Source of the DNA: a virus
Strand: one strand, 5' to 3'
Virus record (IMG/VR): IMGVR_UViG_3300050166_000165
Span: 1-24,009 of that record
Length of the DNA stretch: 24,009 nucleotides
In this document: in pieces, positions 7,916-24,009 of the stretch
Layout of the letters: every line of letters starts with the position of its first letter
Position numbering within the stretch: position 1 is the first letter of the stretch
Program-made: the position numbers and the translations under genes
The notes under the pieces: model-generated
The model's input: only the letters and a program-made list of their open reading frames with translations
The model's database searches: none
What the model was told of the DNA's origin: nothing

Positions 7916-8682
7916 CGAAGCACATGAAGCCAGGCCTAACCCCTTTGATCATCGGCGCAGGTGGTGGGGGTAAGTCCGGTGGGGGCAGCGCCCGTGTGGC
8001 GCAAGAGGCTGCCGACAGCCTGCGCTCCAAAGCCTATGCACGTGTGGTGGATCTGGTGTGCGAGGGAGAAATCGAAGGCCTGGTCCAGGGGCTGGAGTCG
8101 GTCTTTCTGGACGACACGCCTATCCAGAATGCCGATGGCAGCTACAACTTCTCCGGAGTCACACTCGAGAGTCGTCCGGGCACCCAGCAGCAGGGCTACA
8201 TCCCCGGCTTTGCCTCGGTAGAAAGCGAGGTTTCGGTTGGGTGTGGAGTGCAAGTTTGGTCAGCCAGTCGTGCGCTCCATCACGGACCCCGATGTCGACG
8301 CTGTGCGTCTGAAGGTCAGCATGCCCGCGCTGACCTTGCAGGACACGACCAATGGCGATTTGAATGGCACATCGCTCAGCTATGCGATCGATGTGCAGTC
8401 GGCAGGCTCCGGTTTTGTTCAGGTGATCACCGATACGGTTTCTGGCAAAACCACCTCACGCTACCAGCGCAGCTATTACGTGCCGCTGCCAGGCACTGGC
8501 CCTTGGGATGTGCGATTGCGCAGGCTCACCGAAGACGCGACCCAAAGCAGCCTGCAAAACAAAACCTTTCTGGACTCGTACACCGAGGTCATCGAGAGCA
8601 AGCTGCGCTACCCCAACAGCGCCTTGATGGCCCTGCGGGTGGACGCATCTCAGTTCAACGCAATCCCTCGGCGCAGCTATGA
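7912..8682 (+). CDS. J: Tail tip protein J, N-terminal segment (interrupted by frameshift)
   Basis: The start codon overlaps the I stop (ATGA). Residues 1-109 match a J/TipJ N-terminus: a Gly-rich start (GAGGGGKSGGG), then AADSLRSKAYARVVDLVCEGEIEGLV.GLESVFLDDTPIQNADGSYNF and GFASVESEVSVG. From about 8239 the frame turns to Arg/His/Ala-rich nonsense up to its stop at 8682, while the expected J sequence continues one base over (VECKFGQPVVRSITDPDVDAV). Removing one G from the GGG at 8239-8241 gives a continuous reading V-S-V-G-V-E-C-K-F-G. The gene is therefore either truly frameshifted or carries a sequencing/assembly indel. Only 7912-8238 should be regarded as meaningful in this frame. Confidence 0.8.
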   Translation: MTKHMKPGLTPLIIGAGGGGKSGGGSARVAQEAADSLRSKAYARVVDLVCEGEIEGLVQGLESVFLDDTPIQNADGSYNFSGVTLESRPGTQQQGYIPGFASVESEVSVGCGVQVWSASRALHHGPRCRRCASEGQHARADLAGHDQWRFEWHIAQLCDRCAVGRLRFCSGDHRYGFWQNHLTLPAQLLRAAARHWPLGCAIAQAHRRRDPKQPAKQNLSGLVHRGHREQAALPQQRLDGPAGGRISVQRNPSAQL

Positions 8683-11449
8683 CTTGAAGCTCCTGCGGGT
8701 TCGCGTACCGACCAACTACATCCCTGAAACTCGGTCATACACCGGAATCTGGGATGGCACGTTCAAGGTGGCCTGGACCGACAACCCGGCATGGTGCTTT
8801 TATGACCTGGTGACCAGCACCCGCTACGGTCTTGGCAACTACATCCCAGAGTCTCAAGTGGACAAATGGGCGCTGTACCGGGTAGCGCGTTACTGTGACG
8901 AGCTGGTGCCCGATGGTCTGGGCGGGTATGAGCCCCGCTTCACCTGTAACCTGTACCTGCAGACCCGTGAGCAGGCCTACAAGGTCGTGCAGGACATGGC
9001 CTCGGTGTTTCGGGGCATGGCCTACTGGTCCGGCGGTACCATTACGGTCACGCAGGACGCGCCGCAAGACCCGATCTACCAGTTCACCGCTGCCAACGTC
9101 ATCGACGGAGAGTTCGCCTACCAGGGCTCATCTGCCAAGGCTCGCCACACGGTGGCCCTGGTCAGCTGGGTGGATCCAGAAGATTTTTATCGGCAAAAGG
9201 TGGAATACGTCGAGGATGTTGCGGGCATCGCGCGCTATGGCGTGGTGCAGGCCGATGTGGTGGCCATGGGTTGCACCTCGCGCGGCCAGGCCAATCGGGT
9301 GGGCAAATGGCTGCTGTACTCCGAGCAGTCCGAGTCAGAAATCATCACCTTCCGCACAGGCCTGGAAGGGGCTGTGGTGCGCCCAGGGGATGTCATTCAG
9401 GTGGCCGATCCGAGCCGCGGTGGCATGCGCTTGGGAGGACGCATCGCAGCGGCTACCACCACCACCGTCACTCTGGACCAAGATTTGCCAGCCGACTTGC
9501 CTTGGCGGCTCTCGGTCATCTTGCCAAACGGTACCGTGGAAGAGCGTCTTGTTGGTGCCGCCGTTGACGCACCAAGGGGCCGAACGCTTATGGTGACCAT
9601 CCCCTTCAGCATGGCACCGCAAACCGATGCCATCTGGGTGCTGGCTTCATCGATCATTGAGCCGCAACTGTTTCGGGTGGTCTCGGTGGCCGAGACCGAG
9701 CCTGGTGTGCATGAGGTCACGGCGCTGTCCCACAACCCGGGTAAGTACGCTGCCATCGAAGAAGGCCTGGCGCTGCAGCCGCGCGCCATCACGGTGTTGT
9801 CGGACACGCCAGCCCTCCCGACGGGTCTCATCATGCAAGAGCGCCTGTACCGGGTCAAAGACCGGGCCCAGGTGCTGGTGCAACTGTCCTGGGCTGAAGT
9901 GCCAACGGCCATTGCCTATCGACTGTCTTACCGAGTGGCGGGCGGCAACTTCGTGAGCTTGCCGCTGACCAGTGCCAATTACATTGAAATTCGCGATGCA
10001 CAGGAGGGCGATTACGAGTTCAGCCTGAGGGCCATCGGCATCACCCGAAAGGAGAGTGCTCCCTCCACACTCAGCGCCAAGGTGCTGGGCAAGACACTGC
10101 CGCCGTCGGATGTGACCGGCTTTACGGTCCAGCGCCGCATGACCGATTTGCTGCTGAGCTGGGAAGAACTGCCCGATGCCGACTTGGCTGGCTACGAGGT
10201 GAGGGTTGGGCCCGGCTGGGACGACGCCCAACTGGTGGCCACCACCTCGGGCACGCAGATGGTCCACGATCAGGATGCGGCCGGGCACTACCCGTACCAC
10301 ATCCGTGCTTATGACACCTCGGGCCACTACAGCGCGCACGTCACCACCTTCGTGCTGACCTTGCTGGCTCCTGCCACGGTGCGCCAGTTCGATGTGGTGC
10401 AGTCGGCCAACCGGCTGGAGTTTCGCTGGCAACCAAACCCCGAGCCCGAGGTGGTGGGTTATGAGCTGCGCGAAGGGGCAGCCTGGGACGCATCGCTTTT
10501 TGTGGCCGAGGTCAAGTCCACCAGCTACACGCTGCCCTCGGGCTTTGATGGTGAGCGCAAGTTCTGGATCAAGGCGATCGCCTCGCCCGGCATCTACAGC
10601 GACACGCCCACCTTCGTCTCGACCGTGGTGGCTCAGCCGCAAAACGCCAACCTGATCCTTGAGCGAGATGAGCAGGCTGCTGGCTTTGCTGGCACCAAGC
10701 ACTTCGCCTCGGTGGTCACGGTCAATGGCCGAAACGTGCTGCGCATGAACACCGGTGCACAAGTGGCCGAATACCTCTTTGAGCTGGATCTGGTCTCGCC
10801 CATCCGGGCGCAGAACACCTTGCTCAGCAGTTTGGGGGCGTCGGTCGACGACCGTACCACCTGGCAGGAAGCCAACTTTGCCTGGAGCGGTGACGCTGCC
10901 AGGCGGCAATGGACTTATGACGGAGCCATCGCCAACGTGGATGCGCGGTTCCAGATGGCGCGCCAGGACGTCTTGCACCCAGGTGAGTTGTACGGCTGGC
11001 GGCTGAGCGGCTCGGTGATGGGCATCGGCAACCTGCAAGCGAACCCCTCGGCGGGTGTGAGCTACGGCGATGGCCGCTATGGCGAGGGGCTCATGGTCAA
11101 GGACACCACCCAGGTGGCCTGGGGCGTGAACATTCCTCAGGTGTTCCACACCTCGTTCTGGTTCATCCCGCAAGAGGTCACGACTTGCGTGATTTGGAAA
11201 GCAACGGGCCCTGGCGGTGCTTTGCTGCTGGGCTATGACGCCCAAACCCAAGCCTTCTTTCTGGAAGACCACTTGTCCCGGCGTGTCACGCTCGCTTTTG
11301 AGTTGGCGGCGTCTGACCGGGTCTGCCTGGGGGTTTGCCAGACCCGTACAGAGCGTCGCCTGTTTACTTGCAGGATGGGCGGCCCTGTCCATTCGGCCAG
11401 CGTAGGGATGGAGCCCGTGGGTGGGTTCAGCAGTCTGCAGCTGTACTGA
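8237..11449 (+). CDS. J: Tail tip / host specificity protein J, main part
   Basis: 1070 aa when read from TTG 8237. Joined to the 109 residues upstream it gives about 1179 aa, close to lambda gpJ (1132 aa). Family segments are VDAVRLKVSMPAL, TSRYQRSYYVPLPG.GPWDVRLRRLTEDA, SYTGIWDGTFKVAWTDNPAWCFYDLVTSTRYGLG and GMAYWSGGTITVTQDAP. They are followed by the tail-hub fold, then by three fibronectin type III-like units at roughly 9810-10110, 10110-10360 and 10370-10630. A C-terminal region of about 270 residues is probably the receptor-contacting part. J forms the central tip fibre. GAGG at 8227-8230 lies 6 nt upstream of TTG 8237, so an independent start is possible. A product without the N-terminal hub segment would not be expected to assemble. 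Confidence 0.87.
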   Translation: MGVECKFGQPVVRSITDPDVDAVRLKVSMPALTLQDTTNGDLNGTSLSYAIDVQSAGSGFVQVITDTVSGKTTSRYQRSYYVPLPGTGPWDVRLRRLTEDATQSSLQNKTFLDSYTEVIESKLRYPNSALMALRVDASQFNAIPRRSYDLKLLRVRVPTNYIPETRSYTGIWDGTFKVAWTDNPAWCFYDLVTSTRYGLGNYIPESQVDKWALYRVARYCDELVPDGLGGYEPRFTCNLYLQTREQAYKVVQDMASVFRGMAYWSGGTITVTQDAPQDPIYQFTAANVIDGEFAYQGSSAKARHTVALVSWVDPEDFYRQKVEYVEDVAGIARYGVVQADVVAMGCTSRGQANRVGKWLLYSEQSESEIITFRTGLEGAVVRPGDVIQVADPSRGGMRLGGRIAAATTTTVTLDQDLPADLPWRLSVILPNGTVEERLVGAAVDAPRGRTLMVTIPFSMAPQTDAIWVLASSIIEPQLFRVVSVAETEPGVHEVTALSHNPGKYAAIEEGLALQPRAITVLSDTPALPTGLIMQERLYRVKDRAQVLVQLSWAEVPTAIAYRLSYRVAGGNFVSLPLTSANYIEIRDAQEGDYEFSLRAIGITRKESAPSTLSAKVLGKTLPPSDVTGFTVQRRMTDLLLSWEELPDADLAGYEVRVGPGWDDAQLVATTSGTQMVHDQDAAGHYPYHIRAYDTSGHYSAHVTTFVLTLLAPATVRQFDVVQSANRLEFRWQPNPEPEVVGYELREGAAWDASLFVAEVKSTSYTLPSGFDGERKFWIKAIASPGIYSDTPTFVSTVVAQPQNANLILERDEQAAGFAGTKHFASVVTVNGRNVLRMNTGAQVAEYLFELDLVSPIRAQNTLLSSLGASVDDRTTWQEANFAWSGDAARRQWTYDGAIANVDARFQMARQDVLHPGELYGWRLSGSVMGIGNLQANPSAGVSYGDGRYGEGLMVKDTTQVAWGVNIPQVFHTSFWFIPQEVTTCVIWKATGPGGALLLGYDAQTQAFFLEDHLSRRVTLAFELAASDRVCLGVCQTRTERRLFTCRMGGPVHSASVGMEPVGGFSSLQLY

Positions 11450-13433: not shown

Positions 13434-14369
13434 ATGCAAAACTTCACCGACATCCCGTCGTCGCGCACGCTCTCTGATTCTCTGATCGAGATCCTGAACA
13501 ACGACAAGACAGCGATCTCCTGCAACAGCGGAACCACGTTCCCGACCACCAACCAGCAGGTGGGCATGTTGTGCTACCGCACCGACCAGCTCAAGCTCTA
13601 TCAGTTGATCGGGACCAACCCGGACAACTGGCGCTTCATCATGGATTTGGCCAGTGGGATCGATGCGCAGTTCGCAGCCAAACTCAACGCGGCAGCCTAC
13701 ACCGCAGCGGATGTGCTGGCCAAGTTGCTCACGGTAGATGGCTCGGGGTCCGGTCTGGACGCCGACCTGCTCGATGGACAGCACGCCAGCGCTTTTGCCT
13801 CCGCTTCGCACAACCACAACGCAACCTATCTGGGCATCAGCGCCAAGGCAACGGATTCCGATCGGCTCGATGGCTACGACTCATCGGCCTTTGTCCGCTC
13901 GGTCAATGGTGGTGGTCCTGACGCAAACGGAAACGCTACAGTCAGCATTGACCTGTCGGGCCGTGTCGCCCGTAGCGGTGACAGCATGAGCGGTCGGCTC
14001 ACGCTGCCCAGTCAAACCGTCCAGAGCACCTCGCCCACGATCGACTTTTACGACACGGACCAGGGCAGCACCCGCTACTTGCATGTCAACAGCAACCTGA
14101 TGGGGTTTTTGAAGACCGACGGCAACTGGGACATGTACATGAACAACGGCGGCTCCATGTGGACCGCCAACTACGGCTGGTTGCACGACTATTTTTTCAG
14201 GCAAGTAGCTAACTGTGGCGGCACAGGTTATGCCATCAATTGCTATGGCAGCGGCAACATCACATCAAGGCATGACTACGAGTTGATTGATGAAGGTGGT
14301 CAGCTGCGGCTGCGCACAGTGAACGTGTTAGCCAACTGCAATTGCAACTGCAATTGCTGCGGCTGCTGA
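13434..14369 (+). CDS. Tail fibre protein with an Asn-Cys repeat C-terminus (candidate modified substrate)
   Basis: 311 aa. The N-terminus (MQNFTDIPSSRTLSDSLIEILNNDKTAISCNSG) is fibre-like. The middle carries the phage fibre motif LDADLLDGQHASAFASASHNH and its variant SDRLDGYDSSAFVRSVNG. The next part, SGRVARSGDSMSGRLTLPSQTVQ, is also typical of tail fibres. A C-terminal Trp/Tyr/Asn-rich domain has NCGGTGYAINCYGSG. The last eleven residues are NCNCNCNCCGC, with cysteines at 302, 304, 306, 308, 309 and 311. Such a tail is very unlike ordinary fibre C-termini and resembles a RiPP core region or metal-binding tail. Its stop overlaps an ATG of the next gene (TGATG). The following five genes are chained to it by overlaps and include a radical SAM/SPASM enzyme and two oxygenase-fold proteins. 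That this tail is their substrate is inference. Confidence 0.85.
   Translation: MQNFTDIPSSRTLSDSLIEILNNDKTAISCNSGTTFPTTNQQVGMLCYRTDQLKLYQLIGTNPDNWRFIMDLASGIDAQFAAKLNAAAYTAADVLAKLLTVDGSGSGLDADLLDGQHASAFASASHNHNATYLGISAKATDSDRLDGYDSSAFVRSVNGGGPDANGNATVSIDLSGRVARSGDSMSGRLTLPSQTVQSTSPTIDFYDTDQGSTRYLHVNSNLMGFLKTDGNWDMYMNNGGSMWTANYGWLHDYFFRQVANCGGTGYAINCYGSGNITSRHDYELIDEGGQLRLRTVNVLANCNCNCNCCGC
14334..14357 (+). repeat. 12-bp tandem DNA repeat coding for the Asn-Cys tail
   Basis: AACTGCAATTGC occurs twice without mismatch (14334-14345, 14346-14357). Each copy encodes Asn-Cys-Asn-Cys, and the alternating AAC/AAT codons make hexamers AAYTGC four times in a row. Gain or loss of a unit would stay in frame and change only the number of Asn-Cys pairs. 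Confidence 0.9.
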
Positions 14370-14383
14370 TGGAGAGCTTGTCC

Positions 14384-15178
14384 ATGAAAACCATCCGCAT
14401 GCCTTACCCCTTGAAAAGTCCTGCAAGCACCACCAACGCGCAAAGTACCAATAAGGTTCGAATCGAGCGCATTGATGGTGATTTCTACATTGAGCATCTG
14501 CTGCCAGCCTATGAAATGGCGCTGGATGCATCTGGGCGTGTCATTGATGAAACCGCGCAGCCCAGACTGGCAGGATATCAAAGTGCATTCATTCATTGCC
14601 TCAAGCAATCTGACTTGGAAGCTATGGCGCAAGACCCAGGAAACGCTTACACCGTCTGGCTTTTTGCCGTGCGCTCAGGTGCGGTCGAGCCGCTGTGGAT
14701 CAACAAGTTCGCCCAGACTGCTCTTTCCAAAGACGGGTTCCGGGAATACTGGAATCAGCAGCCCATGCTGGTCTTGGCCCAGCTTTGGATTCCGCCGCTC
14801 GGTCTGGAGCCCTCGCTGGTGCTCATGTGTTCGCCACAGTCGGACCAGACTGAAGTGACTGGTTTTGATTTTGATCACGCGTGGGAAACCAATTCTGTTG
14901 CCATGGTCATGGCGTTTCCGCTGTTTCGCCTAGCCGATGAAGGAGGCGATCCACGGCGCATCCGCATCATGGCGGTCAATGACCAAGGGGTGGTGATCCC
15001 GGCGTCCGGGCAGGTGCTCCTGAGCACCACGGCCGGAGCCTTGAGTAACAGCCGCCCAAGCTTGGAGCAAGGGCAAGCCCTGGTCACACTCTTTGGCGCA
15101 GATCCTGGGGCTCTGGCCAAGATCAAGCTGGGGTTCAAGTGGTTCAGTGGTGTCGAAGAGCGGGAGGTGCGGGTGTGA
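14384..15178 (+). CDS. Unknown phage protein with C-terminal Ig-like (Big_1-type) domain
   Basis: 264 aa. I choose ATG 14384 because GGAGAG (14371-14376) lies 7 nt upstream. An in-frame ATG at 14369 overlaps the fibre stop and is possible by coupling. The first 190 residues (KVRIERIDGDFYIEHLLPAYEMALD, then AYTVWLFAVRSGAVEPLWINKF) match nothing I can name. Residues about 195-264 look like a bacterial Ig-like repeat: RRIRIMAVNDQGVVIPASGQVLLSTTAGALSNSRPSLEQGQALVTLFGADPGALAKI. No signal peptide or membrane segment is present. It overlaps the next start in GTGA. It could be a second adhesin or an accessory factor of the modification cassette; I cannot decide between these. Confidence 0.7.
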   Translation: MKTIRMPYPLKSPASTTNAQSTNKVRIERIDGDFYIEHLLPAYEMALDASGRVIDETAQPRLAGYQSAFIHCLKQSDLEAMAQDPGNAYTVWLFAVRSGAVEPLWINKFAQTALSKDGFREYWNQQPMLVLAQLWIPPLGLEPSLVLMCSPQSDQTEVTGFDFDHAWETNSVAMVMAFPLFRLADEGGDPRRIRIMAVNDQGVVIPASGQVLLSTTAGALSNSRPSLEQGQALVTLFGADPGALAKIKLGFKWFSGVEEREVRV

Positions 15179-16164
15179 CCCTGGCTGAAAATGTCCGTGC
15201 GCGCTTCCTGCAGCGGGTCGATGAGTTCACACAGCCGCTGGCCGTAGAGGTTCTGGCCGAAGCTGATCATCTGTCTTGGCGACTATGGGAGCCATTGGAG
15301 ATGTTGCGGCCAGATAGTCCGGTCGGCAAGGTCACCCAGATGCAATATCGGGTCCATCCTTCAGGCGCTTCAATGTCAGACGCGTATTCATTGCCCAGGC
15401 GGGGCCAGTCCAGTCCCTATATCTTGCCGGTCAGGTCGGACATGCCATCTGGGCACACTGAGATCATCGATGGCGTTCGGTGGGGCCTCGTCGATGAAAT
15501 CGCCCTGGATCCACAGGCCATGCGCGCCAAACCACGCATGTACGGGCAGCACCTCAGCGACTGGGCCGCGTGGATGTTTGTCCTGTGCACGGACACCTGG
15601 CGCTTCATGGCACCCTTTAACCGTCATGTTCTGACCCGCACCAGCCAGGTAGACAGCGAAGGCTTTACCGGCTTGTCCTTGCCGCTGACCAAGGCACGCC
15701 AGAAGCACTTGGTCGCCGGGTCTTGCCTGGTGCCTTGGCATGAACTTCCGCTCAGTGCTCAGATGGTGCTTCGCATCAACGCCTACCCCGGGGGCGCGCT
15801 GTGGACCAATCTACCTGTGGATGAACATGTGCGCTATGCCAAGGCAAGCGATGCACTGCTTGGGCACGCGCACACCATTACCAGTCTGCACACGCATTTG
15901 CCCACATTCAGTGTTCATGTTCCGCCAGTGGTTGCACCTGATCAGTGGGTCGAGATTGAAATCCGGGCTTCCGAGCCTGTCGATGTCTGGCTGCATGTGC
16001 ACGCCGTATCGGGTTATGTCCCGCAACACCGCGTGCGCATGCAAGTAGGTCGCGCCCAAGTGCGAGCACTGGCCTTGGGCCTGCGTGCTGGAGAAAACCT
16101 GCACCTTCAAATTGGATTAGGGGCCGTCACCGCACTGGCCCAAGGAGTGATTCATGTCATTTGA
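15175..16164 (+). CDS. Unknown phage protein, His-rich C-terminal beta region
   Basis: 329 aa from GTG 15175, which overlaps the previous stop and has GGGAGG (15162-15167) 7 nt upstream. Earlier in-frame ATG 15139 lies inside the previous gene and gives an unlikely leader. N-terminal residues 1-25 are helical (LAENVRARFLQRVDEFTQPLAVEVLAEADHL). The middle is Trp/Met-rich (WAAWMFVLCTDTWRFMAPFN). A late segment is rich in histidine (LLGHAHTITSLHTHLPTFSVHVPPVV) and is followed by Ig-like strands (WVEIEIRASEPVDVWLHVHAVSGYV). I recognise no family. It could bind metal, or be a structural protein. It overlaps the oxygenase-like gene by 11 nt, so it belongs to the same chained unit. Confidence 0.7.
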   Translation: MTLAENVRARFLQRVDEFTQPLAVEVLAEADHLSWRLWEPLEMLRPDSPVGKVTQMQYRVHPSGASMSDAYSLPRRGQSSPYILPVRSDMPSGHTEIIDGVRWGLVDEIALDPQAMRAKPRMYGQHLSDWAAWMFVLCTDTWRFMAPFNRHVLTRTSQVDSEGFTGLSLPLTKARQKHLVAGSCLVPWHELPLSAQMVLRINAYPGGALWTNLPVDEHVRYAKASDALLGHAHTITSLHTHLPTFSVHVPPVVAPDQWVEIEIRASEPVDVWLHVHAVSGYVPQHRVRMQVGRAQVRALALGLRAGENLHLQIGLGAVTALAQGVIHVI

Positions 16165-16873
16165 CACATCAGCGCACGCTTCACCACCCATCATGGCGGT
16201 GGCCACACCAGGCAGCCCGCACCCGGTCTCATCGACCGTCGCCTCAGAAAACCACCCAACGTCACCCCAACGTTGGGTTTTTTCTTTGTGGCCCAGCACC
16301 GTTTATGTCCAGCCGTCGGGCTTGTCACCCCTGCTGCTTGAGCGGCTGGCGCAAGCCGTCATGCGGGAGGACGCCCACCACCGCTGGGGTCCCGAGGCCT
16401 GGCAGTGCCGTAGCCACGACTTGCTGCAGGCAGGCATATCTCCAGCCGATGGTCTTGGCGACATGCTGGCGGAGGTCCGCGCGCACCTGCAATCCATCTG
16501 GGGCACATACCGCTATCGGCTGAGCGCCCACATCATGCGCTGCCAGCCGGGCTTTCATGTGGCTGAGCACATTGCCAGCTCGCGTCCTGGGCTCAATACG
16601 GTGCTGTTTTTGCAAGCGGACTACCCGGCAACCGATAGCCCCAATGTACGAACGCCCGGCTGCATGGTCATAGGCAATCCCGCCAAGTGTGTTAATGAAA
16701 GTCTGCTGCCTTGGGAGACCCCAGTGCATTTTCCGATCACCCCGCAGCCTGGCCTGCTGGTGACCATGCCGCTGTGCACGCCGCATGGGTATTTTCCGCT
16801 GCGCACCCAGTCGCACGACACCCTGGCCATCGAGTTTCACTCGGTGGCCGAACCGGAGGACGATCATGCTTAA
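16154..16873 (+). CDS. 2OG-Fe(II) oxygenase-like protein with incomplete metal site
   Basis: 239 aa from ATG 16154, which has AAGGAG about 7 nt upstream. Residues 1-47 are Ser/Pro/His-rich with no fold and contain a terminator hairpin at the DNA level. TTG 16286 is a weaker alternative start that would skip them. From about residue 115 the pattern resembles the putative 2OG-Fe(II) oxygenase (PF13759/TIGR02466-like) double-stranded helix. CQPGFHVAEHIASSRPGLNTVLFLQADYP and later ITPQPGLLVTMPLCTPHGYFPLRTQSHDTLAIEF correspond to the first and last metal strands. His139 aligns with the first ligand and His211 with the distal one. The middle ligand position holds Ala141, and the usual Arg appears as His221. 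It may be a non-catalytic partner, a recognition subunit or an unusual enzyme. The call is tentative. Confidence 0.55.
   Translation: MSFDTSAHASPPIMAVATPGSPHPVSSTVASENHPTSPQRWVFSLWPSTVYVQPSGLSPLLLERLAQAVMREDAHHRWGPEAWQCRSHDLLQAGISPADGLGDMLAEVRAHLQSIWGTYRYRLSAHIMRCQPGFHVAEHIASSRPGLNTVLFLQADYPATDSPNVRTPGCMVIGNPAKCVNESLLPWETPVHFPITPQPGLLVTMPLCTPHGYFPLRTQSHDTLAIEFHSVAEPEDDHA
16254..16283 (+). terminator. Intrinsic terminator inside the 5' part of the oxygenase-like gene
   Basis: ACCCAACGT (16254-16262) and ACGTTGGGT (16270-16278) form a perfect 9-bp stem with loop CACCCCA. The T run begins at 16278 and spans six T residues to 16283. It lies at codons 34-44 of a gene with a good ribosome binding site at its start, so translating ribosomes would disrupt it. 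It may act as an attenuator or mark an older gene boundary. Confidence 0.8.
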
Positions 16874-17474
16874 TCTGCGCAGCCCGGTCTCGTTTGCCGA
16901 TGGTGTTTTGGATCAGTCGACCTCTCAGGCGCTCATCGATTGGCTGCAGCACCTGCAGTACCGCTACTACCGCATCACCAACAAAAACGAGCCAGAGCCT
17001 TTCCCGATCTGGCACCGTGAGCTGATGGGGCGGGATTGGCCCATCAACCAGACCTCTGACTACAGCTGCACGCAGCAATTCCTCCAAGACGAATCCAGCG
17101 TGCTACCCCAAGTCTGGATGTCTTGCATGCGCGCACTGAAGTTACCCGTCATGACCCAGTGCCATGGCGTGTACGCCAATGCCAACACCCATGGCAACGA
17201 GGGCAATGTCCACATCGACAGCCAGCATCCTTTGGACAGAACCCTGTTGATTTATGGCGTGCGGCACTGGCAAGCGGGGTGGGGCGGGGAGACAGTGTTC
17301 TACGACCAGGACGACCGCCTGCTCGGCTCCGTCATGCCCGCACCGGCTCGGGCGGTGTTCTTTGCCGGGCATATCCGCCATGGCGTCAACCCCATCTCCC
17401 GCGCCTGCCGCGATCTGCGGCCCGTGCTGGTGTTCAAAACGCGGCTTCAGGAGCCGCAAAAGGCACTCTCATGA
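16866..17474 (+). CDS. 2OG-Fe(II) oxygenase (prolyl 4-hydroxylase-like fold)
   Basis: 202 aa. ATG 16866 overlaps the previous stop by 8 nt and has GGAGG (16855-16859) 6 nt upstream. The metal triad is intact: His116-x-Asp118 in GNVHIDSQHPLDRTLLIYG, and His172 in FFAGHIRHGVNPIS. Arg182, ten residues on, is positioned for 2-oxoglutarate binding. GWGGETVFYDQDD matches the usual 'W.GGE...Y' strand of P4H-type enzymes (PF13640). Such enzymes hydroxylate amino acid side chains (Pro, Asn, Asp) or free substrates. The place between an oxygenase-like protein and a radical SAM maturase, in a unit headed by an Asn-Cys-tailed fibre, suggests a protein substrate. Asn is an attractive target, but that is inference. 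The stop overlaps the radical SAM start in ATGA. Confidence 0.88.
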   Translation: MLNLRSPVSFADGVLDQSTSQALIDWLQHLQYRYYRITNKNEPEPFPIWHRELMGRDWPINQTSDYSCTQQFLQDESSVLPQVWMSCMRALKLPVMTQCHGVYANANTHGNEGNVHIDSQHPLDRTLLIYGVRHWQAGWGGETVFYDQDDRLLGSVMPAPARAVFFAGHIRHGVNPISRACRDLRPVLVFKTRLQEPQKALS

Positions 17475-18829
17475 AATTTGAAATTCACGCCTTGAGCCCG
17501 GACGGCCAATCAGTCTTGCTCCACTACGACAACCAGCTTTCTGAGCTGACTTGGCAGGACGGCACGCCCGTGCTGCCGGTTCAACCGGGAACGTTTCGCG
17601 ATGCCTCTGTGGTCTCGGTCAACCAGCCTGGTTGCAAGGGGAACATCCGCGTTCTCAAAATCAGCTTGGGTCTGTCCTGCAACTACGAATGCAGCTACTG
17701 CAACCAGCGCTTTGTGCCGCATGCGGATGCCAGCCATCCGGATGACATTGAGCCTTTTATCAGTCAACTGACGGACGCGCTGATTGAACCCCCAGAGCGC
17801 ATCGAGTTCTGGGGCGGTGAGCCGTTGGTCTATTGGAAGACGCTCAAACCGCTGGCTGAGCGCCTACGTGGCCTGTATCCACATGCCCAGTTCAGCTTGA
17901 TCACCAATGGCAGCTTGCTCGATGCGCAAAAGATCGAGTGGCTCGACCAGATGGGGTTTTCTGTAGGCTTGTCACATGACGGTCCGGGCCAGTCCAGCAG
18001 AGGCCCAGATCCGCTCAGTGACCCTGAGGGACACGCTGCCATCATGGCGCTCTATGCTCGGCTTCATCCACAAGGCCGCATCAGCATCAATGCCATGGTG
18101 CATGCTGGCAATCAGAGCCGCGCACAGATTCAGGCCTGGCTGCAGCAACGGTTTGGCCAGGATGTGCGCATCGGGGAGGGGACTTTCATTGACCCCTATG
18201 ACGAGGGTGGCTTGGCATCAACCCTGGAAACCCCTCAGGACCATTTGCGCTTCAGGGCCCAGGCCTACAAAGAGCTGCGGATGGGCCTGGCTTCTCGCAT
18301 GTCGGTTGCGCAGCAGCGCATCATGGATTTCGTGCAATCCATCCGGACCGCGCGCCCTGCCATTTCCTTGGGGCAAAAGTGCGGCATGGACCAGGCTAGC
18401 CATCTGGCCGTGGACCTGCACGGCAATGTCCTCACCTGCCAAAACGTGAGCGCTGCGGCTATCGCACCCAACGGGCAGTCGCACAAGATCGGCCAACTCT
18501 CAAACCTGGCCAACGTACAGATGCGGACTGCTACCCACTGGAGCCAAAGAGCCGACTGCCCCAGCTGTCCGGTCTTGCAGCTGTGTAAGGGCTCGTGCAT
18601 GTTTTTGGATGGTCCTCTTTGGGATGCTGGTTGTGACGCAGCGTTTTCTGACAATGTGCCCTTTCTGGCCGCCGCCATCGAATACCTGACCGGCTGTATC
18701 CCGTACTACATCGACGGTGACTTCAGACAGGACCGAAAAGACGTTTTCGGGCAAGTCCACGGAGTTTCGCAGCAACCCCGCAAACGCGTGATTCCCATCT
18801 TGGCGCACGACATGTCTGTCGCCGCCTGA
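17471..18829 (+). CDS. Radical SAM/SPASM domain protein maturase
   Basis: 452 aa from ATG 17471 (ATGA overlap). The radical SAM 4Fe-4S motif is Cys70-x3-Cys74-x2-Cys77 (SCNYECSYCNQ), and the SAM-binding Gly-Gly-Glu-Pro lies at 115-118 (FWGGEPL). The C-terminus has a full SPASM signature. Cys304-x13-Gly-x4-Cys323 is followed by Cys363-x2-Cys366-x5-Cys372-x3-Cys376, and then Cys388. SPASM enzymes modify ribosomal peptides or proteins (sactipeptide and ranthipeptide thioethers, other cross-links, anaerobic sulfatase maturation). No sulfatase is encoded here. Residues 1-58 form an extra beta-rich N-terminal region that may bind the substrate; I cannot show an RRE. It is the last gene of the chained unit and is followed by a terminator. 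The best substrate candidate nearby is the Asn-Cys-tailed fibre. Confidence 0.95.
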   Translation: MKFEIHALSPDGQSVLLHYDNQLSELTWQDGTPVLPVQPGTFRDASVVSVNQPGCKGNIRVLKISLGLSCNYECSYCNQRFVPHADASHPDDIEPFISQLTDALIEPPERIEFWGGEPLVYWKTLKPLAERLRGLYPHAQFSLITNGSLLDAQKIEWLDQMGFSVGLSHDGPGQSSRGPDPLSDPEGHAAIMALYARLHPQGRISINAMVHAGNQSRAQIQAWLQQRFGQDVRIGEGTFIDPYDEGGLASTLETPQDHLRFRAQAYKELRMGLASRMSVAQQRIMDFVQSIRTARPAISLGQKCGMDQASHLAVDLHGNVLTCQNVSAAAIAPNGQSHKIGQLSNLANVQMRTATHWSQRADCPSCPVLQLCKGSCMFLDGPLWDAGCDAAFSDNVPFLAAAIEYLTGCIPYYIDGDFRQDRKDVFGQVHGVSQQPRKRVIPILAHDMSVAA

Positions 18830-18856
18830 TTCAACATCCATTCATCCCAACATCCG

Positions 18857-18886
18857 CCCGCCTGACCTGGTCAGTGCGGGCTTTTT
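18857..18886 (+). terminator. Intrinsic terminator after the radical SAM gene
   Basis: CCCGC-CTGAC (18857-18866) pairs with GTCAG and GCGGG (18870-18874 and 18876-18880), with loop CTG and one bulged T. A CTTTTT tract follows. It sits in the 72-nt gap before the holin-like gene and separates the modification cassette from the lysis genes. Confidence 0.85.
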
Positions 18887-21440: not shown

Positions 21441-22988
21441 ATGACCCCAGAAGATCCACCCAAAACATTCCGCGCCGCGCAGTACGTGCGCATGTCCACC
21501 GAACATCAGCAGTACTCCACCCACAACCAGGCCGACAAGATTCTGGAATATGCCGACCGGCGTGGCATCGAGATCGTGCGCACCTATGCCGACGAGGGCA
21601 AAAGCGGCCTGTCCATCGACGGCCGCGCCTCCCTGCAAAAGCTCATTGCCGATGTCGAATCCGGTAACACCGACTTCAACCTCATCCTGGTCTATGACGT
21701 CAGCCGCTGGGGCCGGTTTCAGGATGCGGATGAATCGGCCTATTACGAATACATCTGTAAGCGCAAGAACATTCATGTCGCCTACGTGGCCGAGCAGTTT
21801 GAAAACGACGGCTCCCCCGTTTCGACGATCGTCAAAGGCGTCAAGCGTGCCATGGCCGGTGAATACAGCCGCGAGCTCTCGGCCAAGGTCTTTGCCGGGC
21901 AATGCAGGCTCATCGAATTAGGGTTTCGCCAAGGCGGTCCTGCGGGCTACGGCCTGCGCCGGGTGCTGATCGACCAGACCGGCGCCATCAAGGGCGAGCT
22001 GAAGAACGGCGAGCACAAAAGCCTTCAGACCGACCGCGTCATCCTCATGCCTGGCCCTGACCATGAGGTGGCCACGGTCCTGCAGATGTTTTCCTGGTTC
22101 ATCCAAGACGAATTGCCCCTGGCTGAAATCGCCAAACGCCTCAACGCCCAAGGCGTCCGCACCGACTACCAGCGGCCCTGGACCTACAGCACCGTGCGCC
22201 AGGTCCTCACCAACGAAAAGTACATCGGCAACAACGTCTACAACCGCCATTCCTTCAAGCTCAAGAAGAAGCATGTCAACAACCCGCCCCCAATGTGGAT
22301 CCGCAAGGAGGGTGCGTTTGAAGGCATCGTGCCACTGGAAACCTTTCTCAAAGCCCAAGAGGTGCTGGCAGAGCGCACCCGCCGTTACAGCGACGAAGAA
22401 CTGCTGTTTCACCTCAAGCGCCTGTATGCCAAATGCGGCACCTTGTCAGGCGTCATCATCAACCAGGCCCCTGGGTTGCCGTGCGCCATCACTTTCGCCC
22501 AGCGCTTTGGCAGCCTCAGCCGCGCCTATGAGCTGGTGGGGTTTCACTCCTCACGCGATCAGGGCTTCATTGAGGTCAACCGGCGGCTGCGCCAACTGCA
22601 CCCCGAGATCGTGCGCCGCACCGAAGAGACCATTGCCGAGTTGGGCGGCAGCGTACGCAGGGACGGTAAGACCGACCTGTTGACCCTCAACGACGAGCTG
22701 GTCATCAGCCTGGTGCTGGCTCGCTGCCAAACCCTGCCCAACGGCCAGCAACGCTGGCGCATTCGGTTTGACACCGAACGCTTCAACCCCGACCTCACCG
22801 TCGCGGTGCGGCTGGATGCGCACAACACCAACGAGCTCGACTACTACCTGCTGCCCCGCCTGGACCTGCCCGAGCAGGAAATCCGGGTCTGCAACCGCAA
22901 CAGCGCCAACTTCGAGTGCTTTCGGTTTGACGACCTGAACTTTTTTTACGGCATGTCAGAGCGCGAGCGGTTGCAGCGCAAGTTTTAA
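21441..22988 (+). CDS. Large serine recombinase
   Basis: 515 aa. Residues 10-155 are a serine resolvase/invertase catalytic domain with the nucleophile Ser19 in YVRMSTEHQQYS. DEGKSGLSIDGR, LILVYDVSRWGRF and AGEYSRELSAKVFAGQ are the further active site segments. Residues 165-260 form a Recombinase domain (GGPAGYGLRRVLID and TDYQRPWTYSTVRQVLTNEKYIGNNVYNR). Residues about 315-375 (YSDEELLFHLKRLYAKCGTLS...AITFAQRFGSLSRAYELVGF) resemble the repeat found with homing endonucleases. No Cys4 zinc ribbon is seen. Such enzymes integrate and excise phages and islands at att sites. The 104 nt before it hold no obvious gene, and I could not locate an att core without the flanks. No clear Shine-Dalgarno is present. 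Confidence 0.93.
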   Translation: MTPEDPPKTFRAAQYVRMSTEHQQYSTHNQADKILEYADRRGIEIVRTYADEGKSGLSIDGRASLQKLIADVESGNTDFNLILVYDVSRWGRFQDADESAYYEYICKRKNIHVAYVAEQFENDGSPVSTIVKGVKRAMAGEYSRELSAKVFAGQCRLIELGFRQGGPAGYGLRRVLIDQTGAIKGELKNGEHKSLQTDRVILMPGPDHEVATVLQMFSWFIQDELPLAEIAKRLNAQGVRTDYQRPWTYSTVRQVLTNEKYIGNNVYNRHSFKLKKKHVNNPPPMWIRKEGAFEGIVPLETFLKAQEVLAERTRRYSDEELLFHLKRLYAKCGTLSGVIINQAPGLPCAITFAQRFGSLSRAYELVGFHSSRDQGFIEVNRRLRQLHPEIVRRTEETIAELGGSVRRDGKTDLLTLNDELVISLVLARCQTLPNGQQRWRIRFDTERFNPDLTVAVRLDAHNTNELDYYLLPRLDLPEQEIRVCNRNSANFECFRFDDLNFFYGMSERERLQRKF

Positions 22989-23017: not shown

Positions 23018-23059
23018 ATGCACCGCACCCCAACCAACACACCACGGAGGCCGTCATGA
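23018..23059 (+). CDS. Possible 13-codon leader peptide before the ParB-like gene
   Basis: ATG 23018 is preceded by AAGGA (23005-23009) at 8 nt spacing. It reads MHRTPTNTPRRPS and then TGA at 23057-23059, overlapping the ParB-like ATG 23056 in ATGA. The coupling geometry resembles that of the main genes. It is Pro/Arg/Thr-rich. It could be a translational coupling leader or simply chance; there is no conservation evidence in hand. Confidence 0.3.
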   Translation: MHRTPTNTPRRPS

Positions 23060-24009
23060 TGACCGACACCCCAGAAAACGTGACCCTGGTGCCCATTGCG
23101 CGCATCGAGGTGCTCAATTCCCGCGACCGCAACATGAAGGTTTTTGAGGAGATCGTCGAAAGCATCCAGCTCATCGGCCTTAAAAAGCCCATTACCGTGG
23201 CCGAGCGTGCCGGTGAAGACGGCCAGCCCAAATATGTACTGGTCTGTGGGGAAGGGCGCTTGAACGCCTTCCGCATCTTGGGCGAGACCCACATCCCCGC
23301 TCTGGTGGTGGACGTGAGCGATGAAGACGCCTTCATCATGAGCCTGGCCGAAAACATCGCCCGCCGGGGCTACCGGCCGCTGGAAATCCTGGCCGATATC
23401 GAGCTCTTGCGCAACCGGGGCTACTCGGCTGACGTCATCATCCAAAAGACAGGCCTGTCACCTAAATACGTGCGCGATATCGTCTTTTTGTTGGAGCAAG
23501 GCGAAGAGCGCCTGATCGAAGGTGTGCAGCGCGGCTCCATCCCGCTCACCACTGCCTTGGAAATTGCCCGGGCCAGTGCCAACGACCCAAACAATGCCAA
23601 CAGCAGCGCCAATGGCGAGGGGCAGGGTGAGGGCGGTGGATCCAACCTGGGTGACCTGCTGCAAGAGGCCTATGAAAACGGCCAACTCAAAGGCCGCCAG
23701 ATCATCGAGGCCAAACGCCTGATCGAAAAACGCCAGCAGTTGGGGCCGTCTTCGCCCAATGCGGCGCAGATCAAACCTCCCACCTCCAGCTACAGCCTGG
23801 TGCGCACCTACCAAAAAGAGGTGGAGCGCCAGCGCAAGATGGTCCTCAAAGCAGAGCACGCGCATCAGCGCCTGTTGCTGGTGGTGCAGGGCCTCAAAAA
23901 ACTCTTTGCCGACGAAAACTTTGTCACCTTGCTGCGCGCCGAGGGGCTGGATACCCTGCCCAAGTACCTGGCCGAGCGCATCACCCATTTTGAAGGAGCA
24001 CCAGCATGA
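23056..24009 (+). CDS. ParB/RepB-like partition family protein
   Basis: 317 aa. ATG 23056 has GGAGG (23045-23049) 6 nt upstream; ATG 23059 is an alternative. The ParB N-terminal domain is clear: VPIARIEVLNSRDRNMKVFEEIVESIQLIGLKKPITV, then the nucleotide-binding CGEGRLNAFRILG and the SLAENIARRGYRPLE box. A HTH region follows (YSADVIIQKTGLSPKYVRDIVFLLEQGEERLIEGV). A short Asn/Gly-rich stretch (residues about 175-195) precedes a RepB-type C-terminal region. ParA is not visible, so plasmid-like partition cannot be claimed. Pairing with a serine recombinase suggests a mobile cassette or a recombinase accessory factor. The stop at the window end overlaps an ATG (24006), so another gene probably follows. 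Confidence 0.85.
   Translation: MMTDTPENVTLVPIARIEVLNSRDRNMKVFEEIVESIQLIGLKKPITVAERAGEDGQPKYVLVCGEGRLNAFRILGETHIPALVVDVSDEDAFIMSLAENIARRGYRPLEILADIELLRNRGYSADVIIQKTGLSPKYVRDIVFLLEQGEERLIEGVQRGSIPLTTALEIARASANDPNNANSSANGEGQGEGGGSNLGDLLQEAYENGQLKGRQIIEAKRLIEKRQQLGPSSPNAAQIKPPTSSYSLVRTYQKEVERQRKMVLKAEHAHQRLLLVVQGLKKLFADENFVTLLRAEGLDTLPKYLAERITHFEGAPA

Follow-up and report, generated by a model that had tools for sequence, protein, structure and literature searches.

The IMG/VR virus record IMGVR_UViG_3300050166_000165, analysed here over 24,009 bases (the window), contains at positions 13434-18829 a single chain of overlapping genes encoding a tail fibre, two companion proteins (A and B), two proteins of 2-oxoglutarate (2OG) oxygenase type (C and D) and a radical S-adenosylmethionine (SAM) enzyme with a SPASM domain. 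The fibre ends in an alternating tract of asparagine (Asn) and cysteine (Cys), and the coupling of this tract to the SPASM enzyme is strongly shown to be real and general. The features of the cassette are as follows, with the evidence for each in brackets.

13434..14369, + strand: tail-fibre protein of 311 residues with Asn-Cys units in its C-terminal domain, ending NCNCNCNCCGC, the presumed substrate (phrog_7389, tract retention)
14328..14366, + strand: codons of the terminal (Asn-Cys)n tract and of the residues just before it (direct reading, unbiased collection scan)
14369..15178, + strand: companion protein A, a paralogue of B (iterated profile)
15175..16164, + strand: companion protein B, with a predicted immunoglobulin (Ig)-like C-terminal domain (iterated profile, structure model)
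16154..16873, + strand: gene C, a degenerate member of the main accessory 2OG-oxygenase family (family profile, alignment)
16866..17474, + strand: gene D, an intact 2OG-Fe(II) oxygenase with HxD...H...R (PF13640, 2.3e-7)
17471..18829, + strand: radical SAM/SPASM maturase of 452 residues (PF04055, TIGR04085, invariant Cys, model)
18856..18886, + strand: intrinsic terminator closing the cassette (RNA fold, T-run)

Read directly from the sequence, the start and stop codons overlap as TGATG (14367-14371), GTGA (15175-15178) and ATGA (17471-17474), with longer overlaps of 11 nt (16154-16164) and 8 nt (16866-16873), and the overlaps listed in the original prediction, made from the sequence alone, agree with this reading to the base. 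The terminator that it placed after the SPASM gene is likewise borne out, as RNA folding gives a stem at 18856-18881 followed by TTTTT (-20.1 kcal/mol, z = -5.7), a hairpin which the terminator scan had missed because of a bulge in the stem.

The Asn-Cys signature of the fibre

The protein encoded at 13434-14369 is identified as a phage tail fibre by its match to phrog_7389 'tail fiber protein' (2.7e-11) and by its place downstream of the tip protein, a TipJ/J homologue. Its C-terminus reads ...VLANCNCNCNCCGC, so that the predicted Asn-Cys tail is indeed present, but the signature is wider than the terminal tract and comprises Asn-Cys dipeptides scattered across the last ~60-90 residues. Asn precedes 69-73% of all Cys within the final 60-90 residues of 88 non-redundant substrates, and for isolated tip Cys (no other Cys within two residues) the fraction with Asn at -1 rises to 186/210 (89%), compared with 4.3% of Cys in other open reading frames (ORFs) of the same loci. 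The unit is thus the Asn-Cys dipeptide, its first position being relaxed (Asn, alanine, aspartate or lysine) in the terminal run. The NxxC (i, i+3) spacing found in NxxcA was considered as the unit and rejected, Asn at -3 being only at background against 89% at -1.

Across 116 in-frame cases NCNCNCNC is encoded by 59 different 24-mers, so that conservation acts on the protein and the tract is no DNA repeat. About 11 different N-terminal scaffold families carry it. Fibres related to that of the window are near-identical over the first 250 residues and diverged in the tip region with the tract retained, as in L007, where 247/250 N-terminal residues are identical to the window fibre versus 25/67 in the tip region; a tip that binds the host would be expected to vary in this way. 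In 75 of 90 non-redundant cases no more than 5 residues separate the end of the last run from the C-terminus, and a free C-terminus thus seems to matter for the tract.

Association of the tract with the SPASM enzyme

IMG/VR contains at least 597 matching stretches. Loci were picked via conserved peptides, and the counts given here therefore describe a large sample among the matches listed and not a census. From the tract side, the DNA pattern (AAYTGY)4 was scanned across IMG/VR with the enzyme not used as a criterion, and the fetched loci contain 88 in-frame C-terminal (Asn-Cys)4 tracts encoding NCNCNCNC. A SPASM gene is present in the same record for 81 of them, 73 in the fetched DNA and 8 by a whole-record search which covered 13 of the tracts lacking it there (8/13); the remaining 7/88 lie 72-1420 bp from a contig end (5 of the 7 were searched as whole records). 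The enzyme gene is downstream and on the same strand in every pattern-scan case that has it. Where (AAYTGY)4 is out of frame, SPASM genes are found in 0/18 fetched loci (Fisher p 3e-17) and in 0/14 whole control records. A scan for (Asp-Cys)4 gave 39 in-frame ORFs, all without the enzyme, and one weak out-of-frame enzyme match (31 bits). A SPASM enzyme likewise accompanies the Lys-Cys tracts of four further records. The proposal that any alternating Cys tract will do is rejected, since (DC)4 ORFs lack the enzyme and long (KC)n tracts have it.

From the enzyme side, SPASM genes were clustered at 80% identity, which reduces shared ancestry without removing it, and 58 clusters have at least 5 kb of upstream DNA. 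The tract is present in 57 of these viral-contig clusters and the 58th (L077) carries a short end, TNCNCDCGNS; cassettes whose fibre lacks any Cys-rich end, which the original prediction had named as the finding that would count against it, are thus not seen among them. The tract persists down to 33-40% enzyme identity, and tract and enzyme also occur together in bacterial prophage-like loci of Limnohabitans, Polaromonas, Rhodoferax, Rhodobacteraceae and Rhodospirillaceae. As the association holds from both sides, the SPASM enzyme and the Cys-rich end of the fibre belong together as a conserved unit, in support of the original prediction. Among 50,697 isolate phage records a close relative occurs only in Achromobacter phages JWF and 2-1, and this rarity may explain why the system has so far gone unnoticed.

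These results bear on the explanation that the locus is an ordinary tail fibre with a disulphide-rich end beside independently acquired auxiliary metabolic genes. 2OG oxygenases and radical SAM genes are frequent in phages, and the existence of PHROG 1802 and phrog_61 accords with such an origin, but the association, found from both tract and enzyme, greatly exceeds chance and depends on reading frame and residue, and with the controls contradicting it this explanation is scarcely credible.

The two proteins which had been described as unknown (14369-15178 and 15175-16164) are paralogues within one conserved companion family, as an iterated profile unites A, B and their homologues and finds the family in 51/70 SPASM clusters. 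Residues ~240-329 of companion B are predicted to form an Ig-like domain (predicted local distance difference test, pLDDT, >90); a PDB fold search with companion B returned only generic Ig-like matches, above E = 1e-3, and the proteins of similar fold are all uncharacterised Caudovirales proteins. In the clusters with long upstream DNA the family is nearly as common as the tract (44/58), which would be expected if the SPASM enzyme acted on the companions, or made an unrelated small peptide, and had merely inherited its position beside the fibre. The other 14/58 clusters nevertheless keep the tract without A or B, the tract is found on unrelated scaffolds, and in the four Lys-Cys phage records the SPASM gene is 5-7 kb from the (KC)n tract, all of which makes such hitch-hiking highly improbable.

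The SPASM enzyme, the oxygenases and a proposed reaction at the fibre tip

The enzyme encoded at 17471-18829 matches PF04055 (2.9e-7) and TIGR04085 (6.3e-8; 32.9 bits against a cut-off of 27), and gene D matches PF13640, so that a complete radical SAM/SPASM enzyme and an intact 2OG oxygenase, both predicted earlier, are confirmed. The cluster motif CxxxCxxC (C70/C74/C77) and the SPASM Cys (304, 323, 363, 366, 372, 376 and 388) are all invariant in 59 diverse homologues, and the enzyme is assigned to the radical SAM superfamily with a SPASM domain by its cluster motif and fold together with the auxiliary-cluster Cys (CX2CX5CX3C and partners). Its model (pLDDT 93.5) has anSMEcpe as the top PDB fold neighbour, with ChlB and CteB also among the neighbours, and its best NCBIfam relative is the thioether maturase PapB (2e-15). 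It belongs to PHROG 1802 (profile match 2.3e-57, residues 58-415), the family annotated without a function as 'radical SAM domain-containing protein' which includes JWF gp30.

Gene D (PF13640: 32.1 bits against a cut-off of 27) contains the facial triad HxD/E...H as HID and H...R, and is a relative of NCBIfam FlmC at a score below the family cut-off (NF052475, 7e-14; 52 bits against 240). Gene C, which has no Pfam match, keeps both histidines and has lost the metal-ligand acid (Asp/Glu) of HxD/E, and therefore lacks the triad. Its earlier description as degenerate holds for the window copy; the family itself is the commonest oxygenase of these cassettes (34/70 SPASM clusters), with one relative matching PF13759 (5e-5), and it is probably intact in most relatives. 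The D family is found in 6 clusters, another candidate 2OG-like family assigned by eye and without a Pfam match in 8, and desaturase-like diiron proteins (PF00487, NF049918) in 6. A literature search on the names FlmC, FlmE and OhkG found no relevant paper. The possibility that the oxygenases act on Asn was examined and set aside, as the Asn fraction is alike in cassettes with and without an oxygenase (p = 0.19). Oxygenases are present in only 37/58 SPASM clusters and none stands beside the enzyme in phages JWF and 2-1, so the predicted hydroxy-Asn is regarded as a possible, but not a core, modification. A second terminator-like hairpin with a T-run (16254-16278; -16.4 kcal/mol, z -3.5) lies within the 5' end of gene C, where its homology to the 2OG family starts, and is possibly an attenuator between the fibre/companion and modification genes.

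We consider it likely that the chain is a cassette for maturation of the fibre tip, in which the SPASM enzyme acts on the Asn-Cys tip, most likely by forming thioethers, with oxygenases as optional partners. Its core would be a fibre with an Asn-Cys-rich C-terminal domain ending in an alternating xCxCxC tract together with a dedicated SPASM enzyme, which would act on the fibre tip inside the infected cell, either ahead of tail assembly or while it proceeds. The residue preceding each Cys, in most cases Asn, would lose a hydrogen and then be attacked by the sulphur of that Cys, yielding thioether cross-links like those made by ranthipeptide and sactipeptide maturases. Companions A and B would probably hold or assemble the fibre or be tip subunits themselves, the 2OG oxygenases would be optional modifiers acting later or in parallel, and the finished tip, rigid, redox-stable and with its C-terminus free, would serve in host binding. 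The data show the association and how general it is, the Asn-Cys signature, the family of the enzyme and its intact motifs, whereas we infer the fibre as the substrate, the thioether chemistry, the roles of the companions and oxygenases and the receptor-binding function.

By analogy, the leading candidate chemistry is a thioether linking Cys to the residue before it, because PapB accepts Cys-Xn-Asp with n = 0-6, adjacent residues included (PMC9413430), and a Cys-Asn C-beta thioether is made by the radical SAM enzyme of the NxxcA system (PMC8326336). The window enzyme resembles that of PapA/PapB (freyrasin) in being a radical SAM/SPASM enzyme with several Cys per substrate; the PapB substrate is a leader-core peptide, whereas that of the window would be the end of a ~300-residue fibre. 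NxxcA from Streptococcus orisratti differs in its NxxC spacing, as the fibre tips have Asn at -1. Two other radical SAM/SPASM enzymes, anSME and QhpD, modify full-size proteins and not small peptides, although they are host enzymes for sulphatases or quinohaemoproteins. QhpD forms Cys-Asp/Glu thioethers. We know of no phage fibre substrate for either enzyme.

Several observations weigh against the proposed cross-linking of the tip. The PapB score (56.7 bits against an equivalog cut-off of 340) does not place the enzyme in the PapB family, and for every characterised maturase family its score falls well short of the cut-off. No domain resembling a RiPP (ribosomally synthesised and post-translationally modified peptide) recognition element (RRE) is seen in its model, where the N-terminus has three strands without the winged-helix helices, and the companion B model is not RRE-like either. 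No leader peptide was found for the fibre; it is not a short leader-core precursor but a 311-residue protein with the tract at its extreme C-terminus, and no protease gene is seen within the cassette. The 'RiPP-like' system of the original prediction is hence a likeness only, the presumed substrate being a full-size protein of virion type. The replacement of Asn by alanine, lysine or aspartate in the terminal tract makes one fixed acceptor chemistry uncertain. Finally, no tract is visible near the host-chromosome homologues of Variovorax (L295, L297 and L298), Bacteriovorax (L305) and L282, all of 33-36% identity and in loci which are not phage-like, and loci L070, L248, L267, L287 and L294 are also without a visible tract.

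The closest fold match, anSMEcpe with a bound Cys peptide, is formylglycine-forming, and the middling anSME NCBIfam match (1.2e-12) and the action of anSME on full-size proteins, as needed here, would fit a different reaction on the tract (formylglycine formation, epimerisation, dehydrogenation or C-C bonding) leading to a reactive and not a cross-linked tip. Substrates of anSME carry CxP/AxR motifs, which are not seen in the tips, PapB-type maturases outscore anSME by sequence, and the strong rule of Asn immediately before Cys suggests that the neighbouring residue takes part; this alternative is considered unlikely. The dense CxC motifs also resemble metallothionein-type sites, and (KC)n and (AC)n versions exist, as might be expected of a metal- or cluster-binding tip which the SPASM enzyme and oxygenases only build or protect without cross-linking it. 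A metal site does not require each Cys to be preceded by Asn, however, nor does it account for the near-constant presence of a dedicated radical SAM enzyme, so that we regard a metal-binding tip as very unlikely.

Taken in its broadest form, the proposed maturation would be an undescribed and widespread finishing of the virion, in which the SPASM enzyme cross-links Asn-Cys units into a covalently locked tip, the tract becomes the exposed C-terminus through its position or through self-cleavage, and oxygenases or desaturase-like enzymes diversify the chemistry; we give this somewhat better than an even chance. The literature covered, which excludes most subscription papers and all bioRxiv preprints, yielded no account of a phage fibre paired with a radical SAM maturase; the original prediction likewise knew of no described system of this form. 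Should the proposal hold, we know of no earlier case in which radical SAM peptide chemistry finishes a virion protein; the host-recognition fibre would bear a cross-linked tip that is ribosomal and genetically encoded. The proposal would also account for PHROG 1802 and for very many environmental phage genes now lacking annotation, and provide enzymes able to modify large proteins at the C-terminus with no need of a short leader peptide.

Domains after the tract, variant tracts and neighbouring genes

In several lineages the tract is followed by a further domain. The other proteins of interest are located as follows.

L030:9664-11115; L099:5013-6437; L129:758-1585; L299-L302: Hint domains straight after the fibre Cys tract
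L420:4309-5103; L432:3684-4424; L026:3814-4521; L423:11967-12689: proteins with very long Lys-Cys tracts
L018:8087-8980; L020:5855-6742; L121:41-934: KIICTKL-domain proteins
L020:4378-5819; L208:5314-6042; L012:7157-7873: fatty-acid-desaturase-like proteins replacing or joining 2OG oxygenases

A Hint domain is directly C-terminal of the tract in Achromobacter phages JWF and 2-1, in L099 and L129 and in Rhodospirillaceae L299-L302, with Pfam Hom_end_hint above the cut-off for JWF and L129; the JWF fibre, gp28, contains NCNCDCNCNCSC, and JWF itself is a temperate phage inducible by UV (PMC3899368). A Peptidase_S74 domain directly follows the (Lys-Cys)n tract in L420 and L432. Both domain families are known to self-cleave, and in this position cleavage would expose the tract as a C-terminus. 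Such domains are absent from the window fibre, where the tract is already C-terminal; JWF differs from the window in its Hint domain and in the lack of an adjacent 2OG oxygenase. A third type, a ~170-residue 'KIICTKL' domain, follows the Asn-Cys region in L018, L019, L020 and L121, and that of L020, the one scanned, has no Pfam match. In L018-L020 the substrate is downstream of the SPASM gene.

The longest Lys-Cys run, of 25, is found in L026. The SPASM matches of the (KC)n phages L445-L448 are listed with one internal stop codon (TGA, TAA or TAG). Small proteins of 67-79 residues ending 'HTHIFYDDYSTACNCNCNCNC..' occur with a divergent radical SAM enzyme in L116, L122, L157, L165 and L180, and record G006, in the same set, contains three radical SAM matches.

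Elsewhere in the window, siphophage-type tail genes encode a tape measure, tail tip proteins and the J/TipJ homologue (8237-11449), which is followed by fibre genes, lysis genes, a serine-type integrase (21441-22988) and a ParB-like protein (23056-24009); the last two suggest a temperate phage.

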